Under the pieces are notes generated by a model. That model was not told where the DNA came from, did no database searches, and saw nothing but the letters and a program-made list of their open reading frames with translations. Source: Pseudocoprococcus catus (GTDB taxonomy: Bacteria; Bacillota; Clostridia; Lachnospirales; Lachnospiraceae). Taken from it: a stretch of DNA of 64,000 bases. Location: NCBI RefSeq assembly GCF_902381825.1, contig NZ_LR698973.1, positions 2,707,788 to 2,771,787 on the forward strand. The letters run 5' to 3'. Positions 1-17,969 of the stretch are shown in pieces (position 1 is the stretch's first letter; the number at the start of each line of letters is the position of its first letter). The position numbers and the translations under genes are program-made.

Positions 1-49
1 AAAATACTATGACATACATATGAGAATCATGCAAAAGGAGACGTTTCTG

Positions 50-1057
50 ATGAATAATAAAACAGTTACAATGGCTCACGGTGCCGGCGGCAAGCAGACA
101 TCTGAACTGATCGATGAAGTATTTAAAGCACATTTTTCAAATCCGGATCTGACAGCGGATGACGCTGCTGTTCTTCCGGCTCCAAAAGGAAAGATTGCCA
201 TGTCAACAGATGGTTTTATTGTATCGCCGGCCTTTTTCCCTGGCGGCAATATCGGCAAATTATCCATCTGCGGTACGGTGAATGACCTGGCTTGCATGGG
301 TGCAAAACCGTTATATCTTTCCTGTGCCTTTGTTATTGAAGAAGGTTTTCCGATGGAGAAACTGGAAGAGATCGCAGGTGCGATGGAGAAAACAGCCAAA
401 GAGGCCGGTGTCCGCATTGTATCCGGTGATACGAAGGTTGCCGGAAAGGGTCAGGTGGACGGTGTCTTTATTACGACAACAGGTGTTGGAGAAATTCTTG
501 ATGGTGTCAGCACATCCGGCGACTATGCCAAACCGGGAGATGCTATTATTGTAACAGGTGATATCGGCCGACATGGATGTACGATACTGCTGGCAAGAGA
601 AGATTTCGGTATTGATGCGGATGTAACCAGTGACTGTGCACCATTGTGGCCTACAGTCGAATCTGTATTAAATGCCACAAAAGATGTCCATGTGATCCGT
701 GATGCCACAAGAGGCGGCGTTGGTACAGTTCTTTATGAAATCGCAGGACAGAGCAAGGTCGGCATTCGCCTGAATGCAGCAGATGTGCCTGTGGCACCGG
801 AAGTCAAGGGTGTCTGCGGCATGCTTGGTCTTGAACCGCTTTATCTGGCATGTGAAGGCCGTCTGGTGATCATGGCGCCTAAGTCAGAAGCAGAAAAGAT
901 TGTCGAAGTACTGAGACAGTGTCCATATTCAAAGGATGCGGCCATTATTGGTGAAGTTACGGAGGAACAGCCGGGACACGTTGTGATGACAACAGAAATC
1001 GGTACACAGGCTTTGCTTCCTCAGCCGGGCGGCGAGCTGCTTCCGAGAATCTGCTAA
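50..1057 (+). CDS. hypE: HypE, hydrogenase maturation (carbamoyl dehydratase)
   Basis: AIR-synthase/PurM-superfamily protein of about 335 residues. HypE dehydrates the carbamoyl group on its C-terminal cysteine to thiocyanate, the source of cyanide ligands for [NiFe]-hydrogenase. The sequence shows the N-terminal AHGAGGK segment, the DDAAV metal/ATP loop, and the diagnostic C-terminal tail PRIC with the acceptor Cys as last residue. I chose ATG 50 over the upstream in-frame ATG 20 because AAAGGAG (34-40) sits nine bases before it. It lies upstream of [FeFe]-hydrogenase maturation genes, which do not need HypE. Partners (hypABCDF, a [NiFe] enzyme) would have to lie outside the left edge. Family call is firm; substrate system is unknown. 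Confidence 0.9.
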   Translation: MNNKTVTMAHGAGGKQTSELIDEVFKAHFSNPDLTADDAAVLPAPKGKIAMSTDGFIVSPAFFPGGNIGKLSICGTVNDLACMGAKPLYLSCAFVIEEGFPMEKLEEIAGAMEKTAKEAGVRIVSGDTKVAGKGQVDGVFITTTGVGEILDGVSTSGDYAKPGDAIIVTGDIGRHGCTILLAREDFGIDADVTSDCAPLWPTVESVLNATKDVHVIRDATRGGVGTVLYEIAGQSKVGIRLNAADVPVAPEVKGVCGMLGLEPLYLACEGRLVIMAPKSEAEKIVEVLRQCPYSKDAAIIGEVTEEQPGHVVMTTEIGTQALLPQPGGELLPRIC

Positions 1058-1140: not shown

Positions 1141-1413
1141 ATGGAGAAAAAAATGGAAACGAGAGTGGCAGTCATTGCGATTATTATAGAAGATGGCAGT
1201 TCAGCACAGGAAGTGAATGAACTTTTACACGGTGCAGCTCAATATATTATCGGACGCATGGGAATCCCTTATCGTGACAAAGGGATCAGTATTATCAGCA
1301 TTGCAATCGATGCGCCGCAGGATGTCATCAGTACGTTGTCCGGCAAAATTGGCCGGCTGAAAGGTGTATCCGTCAAAACGGCGTATTCCAATGTTGTTTC
1401 AAAAGAGAATTAG
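1141..1413 (+). CDS. TM1266-type iron-only hydrogenase system regulator
   Basis: Protein of 90 residues with an ACT/NikR-like fold pattern (RVAVIAIII near the start, then a second beta-alpha-beta unit ending KTAYSNVV). It resembles the TM1266 family that repeatedly neighbours hydE, hydF and hydG. The family is called a putative regulator of [FeFe]-hydrogenase systems, but its ligand and mechanism are unknown to me. No DNA-binding domain is visible, so direct transcriptional control is not shown. It begins about 80 bases after hypE with GGAG at 1132-1135 and runs into the NifH-like gene, suggesting one transcript. Confidence 0.8.
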   Translation: MEKKMETRVAVIAIIIEDGSSAQEVNELLHGAAQYIIGRMGIPYRDKGISIISIAIDAPQDVISTLSGKIGRLKGVSVKTAYSNVVSKEN

Positions 1414-1467: not shown

Positions 1468-2229
1468 ATGATTAAGATTGCTGTATATGGAAAAGGCGGT
1501 ATCGGCAAATCAACCACTGTTTCGAATGTGGCTGTCGCATTAGCGGAAAAAGGGCTGAAAGTTATGCAGATCGGCTGTGACCCGAAGGCGGATTCAACCA
1601 TGCAGCTGAGACATGGTGAAGCCGTACCGACTGTACTGGAGCTGGTGAATCAGCGCAAAAATGATTTTGAATTAGAAGATATGGTTCGCATCGGATTCGG
1701 CGGCGTCGTCTGTGTGGAAGCAGGTGGCCCGACACCGGGGATGGGCTGTGCCGGACGCGGTATTATTACGGCACTGGAGAAGCTGAAGGAAAAAGGAGCC
1801 TATGAGGTTTATCAGCCGGATGTTGTGCTTTATGATGTTCTTGGAGATGTTGTCTGCGGCGGATTTACCATGCCGATGCGAAAAGGCTATGCGGACAAAG
1901 TATTTATCGTTACTTCAGGGGAAAATATGTCTATCCATGCTGCGGCGAATATTGCCATGGCCATCGACAACTTCAAAAACAGAGGCTATGCATCTCTGGG
2001 GGGTTTGATCCTGAATCGCAGAAATGTTAAACGTGAAGACGAAAAAGTGGCGGAACTGGCAGATGATTTTAAGACATCTGTAGTGGGAACCTTATCCCGC
2101 AGTGAACAGGTACTTCTGGCGGAGGAGAAGCAGCAGATCCTTCTGGAGGCTTTTCCGGACAGTGAAATGGCAGATGAGTACAGGAAACTGGCGGAGCAGA
2201 TACTGGCTGTGTGTGAAGCGAGAGGATAG
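1468..2229 (+). CDS. NifH-like Fe protein (nitrogenase reductase family ATPase)
   Basis: Protein of 253 residues, about 35 shorter than a standard NifH. It has the deviant Walker A GKGGIGKS (residues 9-16), the CDPKADST switch segment, Cys94 within GMGCAGRG and Cys130 within GDVVCGG. These are the two ligands that hold a [4Fe-4S] cluster across the homodimer, and the Arg after Cys94 is the residue that is ADP-ribosylated in some NifH proteins. Fe proteins donate electrons with ATP hydrolysis to a component-1 partner, and two such partners follow at once. No nifB, nifE, nifN or nifV is seen, so true nitrogen fixation is unlikely. It could serve a tetrapyrrole-reductase-like or uncharacterised reductase system. 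Confidence 0.88.
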   Translation: MIKIAVYGKGGIGKSTTVSNVAVALAEKGLKVMQIGCDPKADSTMQLRHGEAVPTVLELVNQRKNDFELEDMVRIGFGGVVCVEAGGPTPGMGCAGRGIITALEKLKEKGAYEVYQPDVVLYDVLGDVVCGGFTMPMRKGYADKVFIVTSGENMSIHAAANIAMAIDNFKNRGYASLGGLILNRRNVKREDEKVAELADDFKTSVVGTLSRSEQVLLAEEKQQILLEAFPDSEMADEYRKLAEQILAVCEARG

Positions 2230-2243
2230 AAGGAGGCCGTTTT

Positions 2244-3584
2244 ATGTTGAAAAGACTGGGTGGAACAGTCGATCCAAAAGGAGCGGCGACGGCCATCAAA
2301 GATGCGGAATTTCCGGTGCCATTTGCATCGGAACTGGAATTTAATTCGCCGGTACACGGAACATGGAATATCGTTCACACCGGCATGCAGGTGCCGGATG
2401 CTCATCAGATTTACGTCTGTGCCGATAACTGTATGCGTGGTGTTGTTTTAACAGCGGCAGAGATGAACGAGGCGGAACGTTTTTCCTTTGTTATCCTCAA
2501 GGAAGAGCATTTGCTGAACGGCAATCTGGAAGATATTACCATCGAAGGTGTGTCGGATGTGATCGAGAGATTGGAACAAAAGCCGAAAGCGGTTTTTCTG
2601 TTTACAGTTTGTCTGCATCATTTCCTGGGCAGCGATCTTGAGAGAATCTACGATGAACTGGGAAAACGATTTCCTGAAATCTGTTTTGTCAGATGTTTTA
2701 TGGATCCGATCATGCGAAAGAGTGGTCTGACACCGGATCAAAAGCTGCGTTTGTCCATGTATGATCCTTTGAAGAAAGGAACAGTAACAGAAGAAGGGCA
2801 GCGAAGAATATCTATCCTGGGCAGCGATTTTGCACTGGACGAGACATCAGATCTCAAGAGATTGCTCAGATGTAATGATTATCAGATTAAAGAGTCCCCG
2901 GTTTGTGAGTCCTGGGAAGATTATCTTTCTCTGTCAGACTGCCGGATGATGCTGAACTGTTATCCGTCAGGAAAAGCCGGTACGGAATGGGCGGCAGAGA
3001 GACTGGGGCGGCCATTTATGTATCTGCCTTCCTGTTTTGATTATGATGAGATCATCGGGCAGCTGGAAGTATTATCAGAGTCATTGGAGCTGCTGGGTGT
3101 TCTTGATTATGAAGGTGAAAAAGAGAGCTGTGAAGCAGCACTTCATGAGGCACTTCTGGAAGTTGGAGACTGGCCGATCGCCATAGATGGGACGTTTCAT
3201 CCGAGACCTATGGGATTGGCAAGACTTTTGATCTCCCATGGCTTTTATGTAGAACGGATTTATCTGGATGCCATCAGCCCTGAAGAAGAAAATGATTTCA
3301 AATGGCTTCAGCAGCATGCGCCTGAGTTGATGCTGCTTGCAACTGTGCAGGTGAAAATGCGTGTCCTTCCGAGACAAACGGAGCGGGAGATGCTGGCATT
3401 GGGACAGAAGGCGGCCTGGTTTACAGGCAGCAGGCATTTTGTCAACATGGTACAGGGTGCGGGCTTGTATGGCTTTGACGGAATCCGGCGTCTGGCACAT
3501 CTGATGGTTGAGGCGGCCCGTGAAGAAAAAGAGACACCGGATCTTGTGATCCGCAAAGGATGGGGGTGCGAAAGCTGCATATGA
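2244..3584 (+). CDS. Nitrogenase component-1-like subunit, first (NifD/E-type)
   Basis: Protein of 446 residues in the nitrogenase component-1 superfamily. Residues 56-74 (IYVCADNCMRGVVLTAAEM) match the NifD cluster-ligand segment that reads CAYAGSKGVV in Azotobacter, here with Cys59 and Cys63. Cys123 in FTVCLHHFLGSDL matches the ECPIGLIGDD cysteine. The HGPVGC segment carrying the middle NifD ligand is absent. The chain ends in a CxxC (Cys442, Cys445). A good AGAAGGAGG ribosome site precedes ATG 2244. The gene starts 14 bases after the NifH-like gene and overlaps the next gene by ATGA, so a complex of all three products is likely. The substrate is unknown. Confidence 0.82.
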   Translation: MLKRLGGTVDPKGAATAIKDAEFPVPFASELEFNSPVHGTWNIVHTGMQVPDAHQIYVCADNCMRGVVLTAAEMNEAERFSFVILKEEHLLNGNLEDITIEGVSDVIERLEQKPKAVFLFTVCLHHFLGSDLERIYDELGKRFPEICFVRCFMDPIMRKSGLTPDQKLRLSMYDPLKKGTVTEEGQRRISILGSDFALDETSDLKRLLRCNDYQIKESPVCESWEDYLSLSDCRMMLNCYPSGKAGTEWAAERLGRPFMYLPSCFDYDEIIGQLEVLSESLELLGVLDYEGEKESCEAALHEALLEVGDWPIAIDGTFHPRPMGLARLLISHGFYVERIYLDAISPEEENDFKWLQQHAPELMLLATVQVKMRVLPRQTEREMLALGQKAAWFTGSRHFVNMVQGAGLYGFDGIRRLAHLMVEAAREEKETPDLVIRKGWGCESCI

Positions 3585-4795
3585 GACAGGCATATCGAAT
3601 AATACCGATTTATACAGCCGATGTATCCGGCGTCTGTTCAGCCCTTTATGAATTGGGCGGTATGACAGTGATGCACGATCCTTCGGGATGCAATTCGACG
3701 TATAATACCCATGATGAGATCAGATGGTATGAGGAGGACAGTCTGATCTTTATCTCAGGACTGACAGAAATCGATGCGATCATGGGAAATGATGAGAAGT
3801 TTATCCATGATATCGAGGAGGCAGCCCGTGATCTGAAACCACGCTTTATTGCCCTGGCCAGTTCGCCGATCCCCTATATGAACGGCACGGATTTTCCGGC
3901 CATTGCAGAGGTAACAGAGCAGGATACGGGTATTCCGACCTTTGCAGTGCCTACAAACGGCATGCATGATTATGTGCGCGGGGCAGGTATGGCTTTGGAA
4001 GCCATTGCAGAACATTTTGTTTTGCCGAAAAGCCATGCAGAGGATGTTTCAAATAAAAACACGGAGGAAAAAGGCAGAAACCGTCTGGTGAATTTGCTGG
4101 GAGTTACGCCGCTGGATTTCGGGCCTCTTGATCATGCGGAAACGATGAAGCGCAGTCTGGAGCAATACGGCTGGCAGATCAACAGCATGTGGGCCATGGG
4201 AGATTCTTTGGATCAGCTGTCGAAATCTGCAGATGCAGCAGTGAATGTGGTTGTTTCATCTGTGGGGCTTCGGGCAGCCAAAGTATTGCAGAGAAAATTC
4301 GGTACACCTTATGTGGTTGGAGCACCGGTTGGCCGCTTTACGGAGAAGTTGTCAGAGGCAATGGAAGCAGCTGTCAGTGGTGAAAGGGAAGACAATGTTG
4401 TTTATACAGCCTGCAGAATGTCGGCAAAGAATCTTCAAGATGCCAATGATACGAAGGAGAGTCCGAGACACCGGGCGGAGATTACATTGATTGGTGAACC
4501 GGTGACAATGGGGTCTCTGGCAGCAGCCATTGAACTTCAGTATAGCAGATCCGTTCGTGTATTGTGTCCGCTGGAAGAAACAGACGGATTGATGACACCG
4601 GGGGATGAGGCTGTTTGCGGTGAAGAGATGATGGAAGAAAAGCTGAAGGATGCAGGAATCATTGCGGCAGATCCATTGTACAGGCCAATCTGTCCAAAGG
4701 ATGCTCAGTTCTTTGAATTGCCGCATATTGCTTTTTCGGGAAGAATTTATTTGAAGAAAATAAAACAGATGCCGGGATTTGCCGACCTTATCTAA
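3581..4795 (+). CDS. Nitrogenase component-1-like subunit, second (NifK/N-type)
   Basis: Protein of 404 residues, the likely partner of the preceding subunit. Cys19 (SGVCSALYEL) and Cys37 (HDPSGC) match the first two component-1 cluster ligands. The third position, where NifD has ECPIGLIGDD, reads SSPIPYMNGTDF (residues 94-105) and has no Cys. I prefer ATG 3581 because it forms an ATGA overlap with the upstream stop, implying translational coupling. An earlier in-frame ATG at 3560 lacks a good ribosome site. With the first subunit this could place four conserved cysteines at the interface, enough for one [4Fe-4S] cluster rather than a P-cluster. That is inference. Confidence 0.8.
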   Translation: MRQAYRIIPIYTADVSGVCSALYELGGMTVMHDPSGCNSTYNTHDEIRWYEEDSLIFISGLTEIDAIMGNDEKFIHDIEEAARDLKPRFIALASSPIPYMNGTDFPAIAEVTEQDTGIPTFAVPTNGMHDYVRGAGMALEAIAEHFVLPKSHAEDVSNKNTEEKGRNRLVNLLGVTPLDFGPLDHAETMKRSLEQYGWQINSMWAMGDSLDQLSKSADAAVNVVVSSVGLRAAKVLQRKFGTPYVVGAPVGRFTEKLSEAMEAAVSGEREDNVVYTACRMSAKNLQDANDTKESPRHRAEITLIGEPVTMGSLAAAIELQYSRSVRVLCPLEETDGLMTPGDEAVCGEEMMEEKLKDAGIIAADPLYRPICPKDAQFFELPHIAFSGRIYLKKIKQMPGFADLI

Positions 4796-4813: not shown

Positions 4814-6019
4814 ATGGGATTGAATGAAACACCGTCAGGTGAGCGTGTACATATAGGTTTTTTTGGCCGGAGAAATGCGGGTAAATCCAGCCTGGTCAAT
4901 GCTGTGACAGGACAGGAACTGGCTGTTGTATCCGATACAAGAGGAACTACAACAGACCCTGTCAGCAAGGCAATGGAACTGCTTCCGATCGGGCCGGTTG
5001 TCATCATAGATACTCCGGGATTTGATGACGAAGGCGCACTTGGCGAATTGCGAGTCCGCAAAACAAGACAAATTTTGAATAAATCCGATGTGGCTGTGCT
5101 GGTGGCAGATTGCACAGAGGGCCTGAAAGACTGCGACAGAGAATTGATCGAGATTTTTCGACAGAAGGAGATTCCATGGCTGCTTGTCTGGAATAAATGT
5201 GATCTGAAGCCGGAACACCCGGAAGCCAAAGAAAATGAGATTTATGTCAGTGCCACAGAGAAGATAGAGATTGAAGCATTAAAAGAGAAGATTGCAGCCA
5301 TCGGCAAGACAGAAGAAAACAAACTGATGCTGGTGGGTGATCTGATGCATCCGGGAGATATGGCTGTTCTTGTTATTCCAATCGACAAGGCGGCACCGAA
5401 GGGACGTCTGATCCTGCCTCAGCAGCAGGTTATCAGGGATATTCTGGAGGCGGAAGGCGCAGCTGTCTGTGTCAAGGAATATGAATTGAGGGAGACTTTG
5501 GAGAAATTCAAGGAACCGCCGGCCATTGTTATCACGGATAGCCAGGTTTTTGCAAAGGTATCTGCGGATGTACCGGAAAGTATTCCGTTGACATCTTTTT
5601 CTATTCTGATGGCCAGACATAAGGGACTTCTGGATACGGCTGTTCGTGGGATTGCCGCAGTGGAAGATCTGAAAGACGGAGATACAGTGCTAATCGCAGA
5701 GGGATGCACCCATCATCGCCAGTGTGATGACATTGGCAGTGTTAAGATACCGAGATGGCTGAAGAATTACACAGGCAAAAAGCTGAATATTGAGCTGTGT
5801 TCCGGCAGAGAATTTCCGGAAGATCTGTCGAAATATGCCCTGATCATTCATTGCGGAGGCTGTATGCTGAATGAGCGCGAGGTCCGCTATCGTATGAAAT
5901 GTGCCGTTGATCAGGGTGTGCCGATCACTAACTATGGCATCGCCATTGCCTATATGCAGGGCATCCTAAAAAGGTCTGTCAGTATGTTTCCATATCTGGC
6001 TGAGGAATTGCCGGATTAA
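4814..6019 (+). CDS. hydF: HydF, [FeFe]-hydrogenase H-cluster maturation GTPase
   Basis: HydF of 401 residues, the scaffold on which the 2Fe subcluster is assembled before transfer to HydA. It has an N-terminal GTPase domain with P-loop GRRNAGKSS, a DTPGF G3 motif and NKCDL as G4. The C-terminal cluster-binding domain shows Cys298-x-His300 and, 45 residues later, His346-Cys347-x-x-Cys350. This is the family's CxH...HCxxC signature. AAGGAGG precedes ATG 4814, 18 bases after the nitrogenase-like gene, so it sits in the same operon. HydE and HydG are not in this window. Confidence 0.95.
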   Translation: MGLNETPSGERVHIGFFGRRNAGKSSLVNAVTGQELAVVSDTRGTTTDPVSKAMELLPIGPVVIIDTPGFDDEGALGELRVRKTRQILNKSDVAVLVADCTEGLKDCDRELIEIFRQKEIPWLLVWNKCDLKPEHPEAKENEIYVSATEKIEIEALKEKIAAIGKTEENKLMLVGDLMHPGDMAVLVIPIDKAAPKGRLILPQQQVIRDILEAEGAAVCVKEYELRETLEKFKEPPAIVITDSQVFAKVSADVPESIPLTSFSILMARHKGLLDTAVRGIAAVEDLKDGDTVLIAEGCTHHRQCDDIGSVKIPRWLKNYTGKKLNIELCSGREFPEDLSKYALIIHCGGCMLNEREVRYRMKCAVDQGVPITNYGIAIAYMQGILKRSVSMFPYLAEELPD

Positions 6020-8247: not shown

Positions 8248-9027
8248 ATGAGTATGAATTTTGTGAACGAACCAACAAGGGCATGGGATCCTAAAAACAG
8301 ACTTCGGGAAATGATTAATGAGGGAAGTGATGCAGCGAATGTGGATAAGTTGGTGGAACTGCTGATCATGGATGGATTTGATTTTTCACTGACTGCGGAT
8401 GCAATGACACCGATCGATGAGGCTGAGCGTGTTGTTTCCGTAGGTATGGGTATTGCGGTGAAGAGTGAAATGTATCTGATCGAGAATCTGGCCCAGGCAG
8501 CAGGTGCAGCTATGGGATGTTCAAGACCCGCTTACGAAAGACTGAAAGTGCTTCCTAGAGAGCGCTTTGTGGGCATGAGCGGTGAGAAATTTACCGGAAC
8601 ACTTTATATTGCCTGCGCTATTTCAGGTGCACAGCAGCATTTGAAAGGTATTGAGAAAGCACATACCGTTGTCGCTATCAACAGAAACGAAAAAGCACCG
8701 ATTTTCAGACATGCGGATTATGGTATTGTCGGCGATATTCGCAAAATTTTGCCGCTTTTAACAGAAAAATTAAACAGTGATCTGCCAAAACCGGACCCAA
8801 ATGCTAAACCGGCGAAACGGGAGATGCCGTTATACTCAAAGACAACAGCAACAGCGGACGGTCGCTATGTCTGCATGGGATGCGGTTATGAGTATGACCC
8901 TGAAAAAGGCGATCCGGAGGCAGGTATTGAACCGGGTACTTCTTTTGAGGCGCTGCCGGAAGACTGGATTTGTCCGGAATGCGGTGTATCAAAAAGTGAA
9001 ATGATTTCAGCAGTAACAAGAGGATAG
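8248..9027 (+). CDS. ETF-alpha FAD domain fused to rubredoxin
   Basis: Protein of 259 residues joining two electron-transfer modules. Residues about 55-175 match the C-terminal FAD-binding domain of ETF alpha ([53 protein letters not shown]). The N-terminal ETF-alpha nucleotide-fold domain is absent. Residues 205-259 form a rubredoxin with Cys209-x2-Cys212 and Cys242-x2-Cys245 as iron ligands. GGAGGTG precedes ATG 8248, and the flavodiiron gene starts 15 bases downstream. The likely job is to pass electrons through FAD and rubredoxin to that enzyme. The upstream electron donor is not shown. Confidence 0.85.
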
Positions 9028-9042: not shown

Positions 9043-10392
9043 ATGAACGGTGTAAGAAAAGTAACGGAAGATTTATATTGGGTTGGCGTGAATGATAAGC
9101 GAATCGAATTATTTGAAAATATTCATCCAATTCCGGAGGGTGTTTCCTACAATGCATATCTGTTGTTAGATGAAAAAACGGTTCTTTTTGATACTGTGGA
9201 TTGGTCAGGCTGCCGTGTATTCCTTGAGAACATTGCTGCTGTTCTGGATGGCAGAAAACTGGATTATCTTGTTGTCAATCATATGGAACCGGATCATGCA
9301 GCTTCTCTTGAGGAAGTCCTGATTCGTTATCCGGAATGTAAAGTTATCAGTAACGAAAAAGCATTTATGTTTATGCGTCAGTTTGGTTTTGATGTGGACG
9401 GCCGGGAAGATACCGTCAAAGAGGGCGATACAAGATGCTTCGGCAAGCATACAGTGACATTCCTGATGGCGCAGATGGTGCATTGGCCGGAAGCCATGGT
9501 GACATTTGATACAACCAACGGCGTGCTGTTTTCAGCAGATGCATTCGGTTCCTTTGGTTCACTGGATGGCCGTCTGTTCGACGATGAAGTGAACTTCGAC
9601 AGAGATTGGATTGACAATGCCAGAAGATATTTCACCAATATTGTGGGAAAATATGGCCCATTTGTACAGCAGCTGTTAGCAAAAGCTAAAACAGCGCCGA
9701 TCAAGATGTTCTGTCCGCTGCATGGACCGGTATGGCGTACCAATCTGGGTTATTATCTGGACAAGCATGATAAATGGAGCCGCTATATTCCGGAAGAAAA
9801 CGGCGTGATGATCGTCTATGCATCTATGTACGGCAATACAGAATCTGCTGCCCAGGCATTGGCGGCACAGCTGTGTGAAAAAGGCGTTACCAATGTGAGA
9901 GTATACGATGTGTCAAAGACCCATGTATCCTATCTGGTGGCAGAAGCCTTCAAATACAGCCACATCGTGCTGGCATCTGTGACATACAATTTGAATATTT
10001 ATCCTGTGATGGAAGATTTTCTGCACCATCTGAAGGTGCTGAACCTGTCGAAACGTGTCTTCGGCATCATTGAAAATGGTTCATGGGCCATTAAATCCGG
10101 TTCATTAATGGAGAAATATATTGATGAGAACCTGAAAGACTGCAAGATTCTGAATGCCAGAATGACCATCAACTCTTCAGCTAACCGCTCCAATGCATCA
10201 GAACTGGATGCTCTGTCAGATGCCATCGTGAAATCTGTGGCTATTGAGGAGAAATCCTTTGAACAGCGAGTTATTGATGATGCGGCATTTGCGGAAGAAG
10301 AGGCAAGAAAGGCTGCTTTCAAGAAACTGTCGGCCAAAGAGAGAATGGCGCTGATGAGAGAGAAACACAGACAGGAAAAGGGCGAAGCATAG
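9043..10392 (+). CDS. fprA: Flavodiiron protein (FprA-type A flavoprotein)
   Basis: Protein of 449 residues. The N-terminal metallo-beta-lactamase-like domain carries the diiron motif His80-x-Glu82-x-Asp84-His85 (HMEPDHAAS). A flavodoxin-like FMN domain begins near residue 256 (IVYASMYGNTESAAQ). The extreme C-terminus is a Lys/Glu-rich helix of about 40 residues not needed for the core fold. Flavodiiron proteins reduce O2 to water and/or NO to N2O, usually with rubredoxin as donor. Here the donor is probably the adjacent ETF-alpha/rubredoxin fusion. GGAGGG precedes ATG 9043. Confidence 0.93.
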   Translation: MNGVRKVTEDLYWVGVNDKRIELFENIHPIPEGVSYNAYLLLDEKTVLFDTVDWSGCRVFLENIAAVLDGRKLDYLVVNHMEPDHAASLEEVLIRYPECKVISNEKAFMFMRQFGFDVDGREDTVKEGDTRCFGKHTVTFLMAQMVHWPEAMVTFDTTNGVLFSADAFGSFGSLDGRLFDDEVNFDRDWIDNARRYFTNIVGKYGPFVQQLLAKAKTAPIKMFCPLHGPVWRTNLGYYLDKHDKWSRYIPEENGVMIVYASMYGNTESAAQALAAQLCEKGVTNVRVYDVSKTHVSYLVAEAFKYSHIVLASVTYNLNIYPVMEDFLHHLKVLNLSKRVFGIIENGSWAIKSGSLMEKYIDENLKDCKILNARMTINSSANRSNASELDALSDAIVKSVAIEEKSFEQRVIDDAAFAEEEARKAAFKKLSAKERMALMREKHRQEKGEA

Positions 10393-16112: not shown

Positions 16113-17969
16113 ATGCGAAAGAAAAACAGTTTATTTTCAAAATTTTATATTGCGATATGTTTTGCTTTTTTCTATCTGCCGATTCTGGTGACGATGGTAT
16201 TTTCATTTAATTCATCGAAGTCATTGTCGAAATTCACAGGATTTTCCCTGCGCTGGTATAAGGCGCTTTTGGAAAACAGTGAGATTATGTCGGCGGTTTA
16301 TGTTTCTGTGACCATTGCCATCCTGGCCACCATTGCTTCGACAGTGTTGGGGACAATGACAGCCATCGGCCTTTCAAAGTCACGGAAGATTATCAAAGAT
16401 ATGGTGCTCAGCATGAATGATATTCCGATCCTGAATCCGGATATCGTTACAGCCATCGGATGGATGCTGCTGTTCTCATCTCTGGGATTCCAGAAGGGAT
16501 ATATGACTATGCTTCTGGCACACATTGCCTTCTGTACGCCGTATGTCATTACCAGTGTGTATCCGAAGGTGAGAAGCCTGGATCCGAATCTGGCCAATGC
16601 GGCCATGGACCTTGGTGCCACACCGTATCAGGCGTTGACGAAAGTTATTATTCCGATGATCCGACCGGGCATATTTGCCGGTGCGCTGCTGGCTTTTACT
16701 ATGTCTTTTGATGATTTCGTTATTTCCTATTTTGTATCAGGAAACGGCGTCAAGAACATTTCAATTGTCGTTTATAATATGACAAAACGTATCAATCCGA
16801 CGATTAATGCGCTGTCAACCATTGTTATTGTGGTGATTGTTGTGATTTTGCTTCTGGCCAATCTGCTTCCGAGACTGGGCGGCGGTGATAACAAGAAGAA
16901 TAATCAGAACATGAAGAAACTGGTGGCAGGTGTAGCTGTTTTTGCATTAGTACTCAGTCTTGTGACCTGCGTGGCCAACAAGAGCAATAATAAAGAGGCA
17001 AGAGTGTTGAAGGTTTATAATGCCGGCGAATATATCGATCCGGATCTTCTGACAGAGTTCCAGGATGAGTACAATTGCACGGTTATTTATGAAACATTTG
17101 AGTCCAATGAGATGATGTATACAAAGCTTCAGGCCGGAGATGCCTATGATATTCTGATCCCTTCAGATTATATGATCGAGCGTCTGATCAGGGAAGATTA
17201 TTTGCAGCCGATTGACTGGGATTGTCTGACCAACGCGGAAGGATTGAATCCGGATGTTATGAACAAAGAATATGATCCGGGCAATGTTTACTCCGTTCCT
17301 TATTTCTGGGGTAATGTGGGTATTTTATATGACAAGACAGTGGTGGATCCGGCGGACCTCAGTGAAGGCTGGAATCTGCTGATGGATACGAAATATGCAG
17401 GTAATCTGTATATGTATGACTCCGAGCGAGATTCCTTTATGATTGCCCTGAAAGCCCTGGGATATTCCATGAATACCCACGATAAAAACGAGATTCAGGC
17501 GGCTTATGAATGGCTGATTCAGCAGAGAGATACCATGAAACCAGTCTATGCCGGCGATGATGTCATTGACAACATGATTTCCGGCAACAAGGCACTGGCG
17601 GTTGTTTATTCCGGTGATGGTGCCTATATTATGTCGGAAAATGAGGATCTGGGCTTTTTGATGCCGGAAGAGGGAACGAACCTCTGGTATGATGCCATGG
17701 TTATGACCAGGAATTGTGAGAATACAGAACTGGCTTACGAATTTATGGATTTTATGCTGAGAGATGACGTAGCTTACAGAAATACCCAATATGTCGGTTA
17801 CAGTTCACCGGTTGTGGCTGCTTATGAGCAGGCACAGGAAGAGGATTACGAAGGTATCGAGGCATATGTACCGCGTGTCGGCTACGAAAAAGATGAAATT
17901 TTCCGTTATCAGGATACGGATATTAAGAAATTATTTGCTGAGCTTTGGACGAAAGTCAAGGCACAATAA
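16113..17969 (+). CDS. potCD: PotC-PotD fusion: permease joined to polyamine-binding protein
   Basis: Protein of 618 residues. Residues 1-255 are a PotC-type permease with the EAA-type loop (NAAMDLGATPYQALTKVIIPM). Residues about 270-295 form a further hydrophobic segment (LVAGVAVFALVLSLVTCVANK) that anchors the C-terminal half. Residues about 300-618 are a PotD-type extracellular binding protein (VYNAGEYIDPDLLTEF, YDILIPSDYMIERL, VYSVPYFWGNVGILYD). LVTC resembles a lipobox remnant, but cleavage there would release the domain. AGGAGG precedes ATG 16113. Such fusions are known in some Firmicutes, and the reading frame is uninterrupted here. Confidence 0.92.
   Translation: MRKKNSLFSKFYIAICFAFFYLPILVTMVFSFNSSKSLSKFTGFSLRWYKALLENSEIMSAVYVSVTIAILATIASTVLGTMTAIGLSKSRKIIKDMVLSMNDIPILNPDIVTAIGWMLLFSSLGFQKGYMTMLLAHIAFCTPYVITSVYPKVRSLDPNLANAAMDLGATPYQALTKVIIPMIRPGIFAGALLAFTMSFDDFVISYFVSGNGVKNISIVVYNMTKRINPTINALSTIVIVVIVVILLLANLLPRLGGGDNKKNNQNMKKLVAGVAVFALVLSLVTCVANKSNNKEARVLKVYNAGEYIDPDLLTEFQDEYNCTVIYETFESNEMMYTKLQAGDAYDILIPSDYMIERLIREDYLQPIDWDCLTNAEGLNPDVMNKEYDPGNVYSVPYFWGNVGILYDKTVVDPADLSEGWNLLMDTKYAGNLYMYDSERDSFMIALKALGYSMNTHDKNEIQAAYEWLIQQRDTMKPVYAGDDVIDNMISGNKALAVVYSGDGAYIMSENEDLGFLMPEEGTNLWYDAMVMTRNCENTELAYEFMDFMLRDDVAYRNTQYVGYSSPVVAAYEQAQEEDYEGIEAYVPRVGYEKDEIFRYQDTDIKKLFAELWTKVKAQ

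Follow-up and report, generated by a model that had tools for sequence, protein, structure and literature searches.

The window analysed here is a 64,000-nt stretch of the genome of Pseudocoprococcus catus (C. catus). Close to its start lie three nitrogenase-like genes, H, D and K, preceded by hypE and a TM1266-family gene and followed by hydF (Table 1); the preliminary description of this DNA had read the three as a trio, and this is confirmed. The H translation carries the P-loop GKGGIGKST and the cysteine motifs CAGRG and DVVCGGF. HydG, a radical S-adenosylmethionine (SAM) enzyme, is the known source of the CO and CN of the H-cluster. The trio is probably the DK arm of a route to [FeFe]-hydrogenase maturation that does not depend on HydG, supplying the CO- and CN-bearing iron precursor of the H-cluster.

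Table 1. Features of the maturation operon within the window.
Feature	Position	Strand	Evidence
hypE, last gene of hypFCDE; C-terminus LLPRIC	20..1057	+	TIGR02124, 436 bits (cut-off 252)
TM1266-family putative regulator of an iron-only hydrogenase system	1141..1413	+	TIGR03959, 115 bits (cut-off 61)
H, nitrogenase-Fe-protein-like ATPase	1468..2229	+	PF00142, E 5.7e-91
D, component-1-like subunit	2244..3584	+	Cys63 and Cys123 aligned with NifD/NifE P-site cysteines; Cys59 extra
D C-terminal tail RKGWGCESCI, with Cys442 and Cys445	3552..3581	+	Low model confidence
K, component-1-like subunit	3560..4795	+	Structure nearest DPOR BchB; Cys44 at P-site position, Cys26 displaced
hydF, scaffold/carrier GTPase for H-cluster assembly	4814..6019	+	TIGR03918, 576 bits (cut-off 326)
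DPOR, dark-operative protochlorophyllide oxidoreductase.

The trio operon is truncated by the window edge; its layout is seen in a near-identical C. catus locus. When genome contigs were searched with an 18-protein D alignment, 134 stretches were confirmed and 80 loci among them retained; one of these, L001 (C. catus VPIC661), encodes a D protein 98% identical to that of the window. On a longer stretch of the same contig (L098) the genes run on one strand in the order DUF1284-H'-D'-K'-hypF-hypC-hypD-hypE-TM1266-H-D-K-hydF, so that a second nitrogenase-like set precedes the hyp genes. C. catus HypF, HypC and HypD score 772, 65 and 381 bits against curated cut-offs of 466, 48 and 193, and the HypE of the window is likewise above its cut-off. 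The DUF1284 (PF06935) gene (L098 13377-13877) immediately precedes H' in C. catus; no other searched locus received this label from BLAST, but most stretches end short of that place.

Much of this layout recurs. Upstream hyp genes were counted in the 61 of 80 loci whose sequence extends 7.5 kb or more upstream of D, and hypD, hypE and hypF are each present in 59 of these. Across all 80 loci, 72 have some hyp gene and 57 have TM1266, hydE or hydF (50, 21 and 30 loci, respectively). The termini of the Hyp proteins are also conserved in the related loci: 85 of 90 HypE frames end in LPRIC and 84 of 85 HypC frames start with MC. Counts of H', D' and K' are lower bounds, since many loci stop within that stretch. 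Ten of the searched loci have one long frame (667-888 aa) that matches D'/K', as a D'-K' fusion would; several loci have only one Fe-protein gene alongside two component-1 sets; and in three Coriobacteriaceae/Atopobiaceae loci (L046, L052 and L055) one or more other genes lie between D and K. The "fixed place with HydF" given to the trio in the preliminary description is rejected on the hydF count above; more often the trio is accompanied by hypFCDE and a second nitrogenase-like set, or by an ATP-binding cassette (ABC) importer.

D and HydG rarely occur in the same genome. The class to which C. catus belongs was sampled evenly (196 genomes, the class sample): a D orthologue scoring at least 570 bits is present in 10 genomes, HydE in 134 and HydG in 124, plus a HydG truncated at a contig end in G144. 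The genomes with HydE divide into none with both D and HydG, 10 with D only, 121 with HydG only and 3 with neither (Fisher p 7.8e-13); D is found in 0/121 of those with HydG and 10/13 of those without. Four D homologues of 280-325 bits (G093, G147, G155, G161) were set aside before this count; if they are counted as D, the four classes become 3, 10, 118 and 3 (p 2e-10), and three of these four genomes have both HydE and HydG. A family sample of 298 genomes, with a D threshold of E 1e-120 that leaves distant homologues outside the count, contains D in 29 genomes, HydG in 132, both in 2 (G458 and G561, both importer-type) and neither in 139 (p 6.4e-6).

Fisher's test ignores kinship, and a HydE tree was built to address this (FastTree, local support only; 80 chosen rows among the HydE hits). 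Its rows comprise 30 with D and without HydG, 47 with HydG, two of which also have D, and 3 with neither. The D/HydG label changes at least 14 times on this tree, at least 8 of these being forced by supported branches, compared with a mean of 23.9 for shuffled labels. Given so many changes, the exchange between HydG and D seems to have recurred, and a single ancient loss of HydG is disfavoured as the origin of the pattern; hydE may itself move between genomes.

Nearly all tested genomes with a D locus also have HydA, HydE and HydF. Thirty of the 80 were picked by us for spread and culture; a HydA domain is present in all 30, and HydE and HydF in 29 each. HydG exceeds the TIGR03955 cut-off in 2 of the 30 and was found in 1 of the other 50 (L003, E 1e-62 or better), giving 3/80: C. 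drakei, Oliverpabstia (L002) and L003. In C. ljungdahlii and C. ragsdalei, TIGR03955 matches do not exceed 69 bits; both are relatives of C. autoethanogenum, for which passages of PMC9004356 report an Hyt [FeFe]-hydrogenase, and this is counted in favour of a HydG-independent route.

The HypCDEF proteins are the same four that act in [NiFe]-hydrogenase maturation. The cluster differs from that system in two respects. The C. catus operon, as read, lacks hypA and hypB (no search for them was made beyond the operon), and 21 of the 30 genomes, C. catus (G001) among them, have no match to the [NiFe] large subunit (PF00374), so that no such subunit was found there for the Hyp proteins to serve. A plain hyp operon for a [NiFe]-hydrogenase is rejected for most genomes tested. 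The other nine do have a match (2/10 and 7/20 in the two parts of the set); three of the nine matches cover about 70 N-terminal residues at 42-57 bits.

Two main architectures occur among the 38 D loci of the class and family draws (L004, L010, L016 and L079 included): 25 are hyp-type, 10 importer-type and 3 other. Importer-type loci combine H-D-K with a periplasmic binding protein, a permease and an ATPase, and have neither hyp genes nor D'K'. Assignment to the importer family (Peripla_BP_2, FecCD) comes from the Sporomusa and Treponema relatives and was extended to these loci by BLAST. Nine of the ten importer-type loci also hold TM1266, hydE or hydF; L117, for example, reads HydE-H-D-K-ABC-HydF-TM1266. 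TM1266, HydE, HydF or HydA is found in 32 of the 38 loci and none of them in 6. HydG is present in 0/25 hyp-type, 2/10 importer-type and 0/3 other genomes.

More distant trios lack this association. Plasmids pSPTER of Sporomusa termitida (L100 10001-13273) and pTS1 of Treponema saccharophilum (L101 8012-11185) each carry an HDK trio beside a FecCD-type importer, with no hydrogenase genes within 10 kb. Likewise, four class-sample relatives (L105-L108) sit with FecCD-type importers, and the stretch seen around them contains no Hyd genes. The idea that all HDK relatives are hydrogenase-linked is rejected on these six loci. The plasmid trios resemble the C. catus trio in the identity of the Sporomusa H, in the D and K clades of the Treponema proteins and in their importers; they differ in their lack of nearby hydrogenase genes and of the D cysteine tail, and are a separate, uncharacterised nitrogenase-like system. 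The preliminary description had suggested that the trio serves hydrogenase or its cofactor, a link that co-location and HydG exclusion support well. It had also named, as an outcome that would count against this, homologues equally common without hydrogenase genes; this is not so for the orthologue (HydE in 10/10 class-sample D genomes and 29/30 locus genomes), but does hold for the distant sub-family without the cysteine tail (4 genomes, L105-L108).

The trio reaches none of the listed curated cut-offs for Nif, Bch and Cfb. H scores 320 bits against nifH (cut-off 394) and 315 against CfbC (402); K scores 32 against CfbD (268); and BchL and BchB give 209 (345) and 60 (490). The six-cysteine P-cluster set is incomplete, D and K retaining only the P-site cysteines of Table 1, and a sequence search of the PDB with D returned no match. 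The iron-molybdenum cofactor of nitrogenase has Cys275 and His442 as ligands; in passages of PMC3464626, these more diverse sequences are described as lacking the cofactor ligands. In a tree with Nif, Bch and plasmid references, D and D' form one clade and K and K' another; each takes in one protein of the Treponema plasmid but none of the Nif or Bch sequences. H and H' form one group each in a tree in which two rows (L010 and L044) have imprecise starts. The trio does not group with BchB; BchN is a long branch of unsure placement. Sporomusa H is 62% identical to H and Sporomusa D adjoins the D/D' clade, while Sporomusa K is placed elsewhere with weak support. Branching inside a characterised clade, which the preliminary description had named as an outcome against its reading, is not seen with the Nif and Bch references. 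D and K differ from DPOR (BchLNB) and NifEN in their cysteine set and in forming their own clades, and no tetrapyrrole or nif context was seen.

A cysteine pair close to the end of D is found in 84 of 90 hyp-type frames (L001 and L098, both C. catus, are each included); four of the other six retain one cysteine and two retain none. The pair is present in all ten importer-type D proteins, including that of L139, a short contig with no Hyd gene on it, and in 0/6 distant relatives (L105-L108, Treponema and Sporomusa). At the level of sequence, the tail is a mark of the orthologue group, most loci of which are hydrogenase-linked; it is not by itself proof of the link. The D model has a mean predicted local distance difference test score of 50 in its last block, and this low confidence would fit a mobile arm. 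[NiFe] large subunits hold Fe(CN)2CO through a C-terminal CxxC; by this analogy, an iron-carrying role for the D tail is attractive.

Together, these features suggest a second route to the H-cluster, one that is quite possible if short of probable: HypFCDE and two nitrogenase-like complexes would build and reshape an Fe(CN)/CO unit, the D tail would pass it to HydE, and HydG would be dispensable. From gene content and order, HydG exclusion, tail conservation and predicted fold, we infer each chemical step as follows. HypF and HypE would convert carbamoyl phosphate to cyanide, and HypC-HypD would assemble the iron-cyanide/CO unit. The ATP-driven Fe protein or proteins (H/H') would deliver low-potential electrons to the sister complexes D'K' and DK through an Fe-S cluster at the interface. 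One or both complexes may then turn the Hyp unit into what HydE requires, for example by making CO from CO2, exchanging CN for CO or reducing the iron. Supply of CO by one of the complexes is possible, since nitrogenase Fe proteins are capable of CO2 reduction to CO. The cysteine tail of D would carry the iron unit to HydE, after which HydE and HydF would complete the H-cluster. A FecCD-type transporter would take the place of Hyp in the importer variant by providing the iron complex. The cluster is thus proposed for the same step as HydG, the placing of CO and CN on iron ahead of HydE and HydF; the proteins are unrelated, and ATP-driven nitrogenase-like complexes with Hyp proteins would replace radical SAM chemistry.

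A number of observations weigh against a HydG-independent route through the trio. Neither D nor HydG is found in 139 of the 298 family genomes, whose hydrogenase genes were not searched, and three class genomes (G087, G170, G215) have HydE but neither of the two. On the HydE tree G215 lies beside a HydG genome and G170 beside a cluster genome, positions that may reflect incomplete assemblies. C. drakei has HydG and a hyp-type cluster together; Oliverpabstia and L003 have HydG with D-K, on stretches that begin at a contig end with no hyp gene before it. Five Clostridium genomes and one Megamonas genome contain a [NiFe] large subunit that the Hyp proteins could serve. Blautia sp. MSJ-9 (G013, L008) has the cluster, with no HydE or HydF over the cut-off and a HydA-domain match of 156 bits. 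The strongest HydA of C. catus (L093, ORF, or open reading frame, from about 754) reads TSCSPGW, and two Clostridium HydA read TSCCPGW. The importer variant has no evident cyanide source. Passages of PMC9431212 name a candidate HydG with an atypical motif, CLAU_RS03260, in C. autoethanogenum. They also give Fe(CO)2CN as the synthon yielded by HydG and Fe(CN)2CO as the product of HypCDEF; as the ligand counts differ, some remodelling must occur.

Several other explanations are available. The cluster might make some other Fe-CN/CO metalloenzyme or cofactor, the H-cluster ligands coming from a cryptic ThiH- or HydG-like radical SAM enzyme. A TIGR03955 match below the cut-off, at 167-199 bits, is indeed present in 24/30 cluster genomes (22/28 of those without HydG), and the authors of PMC9431212, in the passages available, propose atypical HydG candidates in acetogens. 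We read the match as ThiH; both genomes with true HydG carry it too, and in six of the 30, C. ljungdahlii and C. ragsdalei among them, no match exceeds 71 bits. Since this explanation also leaves the hydE/hydF/TM1266 linkage and the HydG exclusion unaccounted for, it is improbable. An equally improbable view takes HDK as an ATP-driven device for reductive activation, repair or insertion that serves the H-cluster or HydF outside ligand synthesis, with a logic like that of the activation complex of methyl-coenzyme M reductase. Both architectures keep DK and not hyp or D'K', and K is nearest DPOR, a low-potential reductase, in line with such a device; however, activation would not by itself make HydG dispensable, and the near-constant presence of hypD, hypE and hypF upstream argues against it.

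The Sporomusa, Treponema and four class-sample trios, which have FecCD-type importers and show no Hyd genes within the stretch seen, could point to a reductase of iron complexes that serves iron acquisition and lies next to hydrogenase genes on account of their high iron use. Those relatives lack the cysteine tail, the four class-sample ones are distant (280-325 bits versus 570 or more) and HydG is present in three of the four genomes; iron acquisition is accordingly a very unlikely role for the trio. Least likely of all, and scarcely credible, is an ordinary nitrogenase, DPOR, F430 or methylthio-alkane reductase homologue with no tie to hydrogenase: superfamily and folds are shared, but the sub-cut-off scores, the position outside the Nif and Bch references and the hydrogenase linkage speak against it.

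Other genes of the window are of separate interest. Shortly downstream of the maturation operon, a single ORF (8248-9027) combines the flavin adenine dinucleotide domain of an electron-transfer flavoprotein alpha subunit with rubredoxin; next to it lies a gene for an FprA-like flavodiiron protein, with an ODP lactamase fold and flavodoxin (9043-10392). Further on, a 618-aa ORF (16113-17969), its translation judged by eye, resembles a polyamine permease fused to its own substrate-binding protein.

The association of these genes with hydrogenase maturation is already known. Passages of PMC3464626 (Dos Santos et al. 2012) describe two closely linked NifHEN-like copies in C. catus, associated with hydrogenase maturation proteins and suggested to aid assembly of the active-site metallocluster, and also note ABC-transporter-linked relatives; these are from the same species and evidently the same genes. 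The absence of HydG, a phyletic test, the hydrogenase-linked importer variant and the cysteine tail were not found in those passages. In the corresponding parts of PMC9431212, eight acetogenic clostridia all have HydE and HydF and three have HydG, one being C. autoethanogenum with the atypical motif; hypCDEF without hypAB is noted in the C. ljungdahlii group, the hypCDEF genes of C. autoethanogenum being tabulated as CLAU_RS01730-01745, and only hypotheses are offered for acetogens with no identifiable hydG. Passages of PMC10418091 treat group IV-A Mar-like genes. Open-access literature searched by title and abstract, a scope that leaves out most subscription journals and preprints, gave no report of the HydG exclusion, the hydrogenase-linked importer variant or the substitution hypothesis, and no paper with a test of the function.

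The cluster is a concrete candidate for the missing H-cluster step in acetogens without HydG. If the proposal is true, a nitrogenase-like clade would gain a function, and HypCDEF a role in organisms without a [NiFe]-hydrogenase; the cluster would also matter for how H2 is metabolised in the gut and during gas fermentation. [NiFe]-, [FeFe]- and nitrogenase-type machinery would then be merged in one pathway of gut Lachnospiraceae and industrial acetogens.

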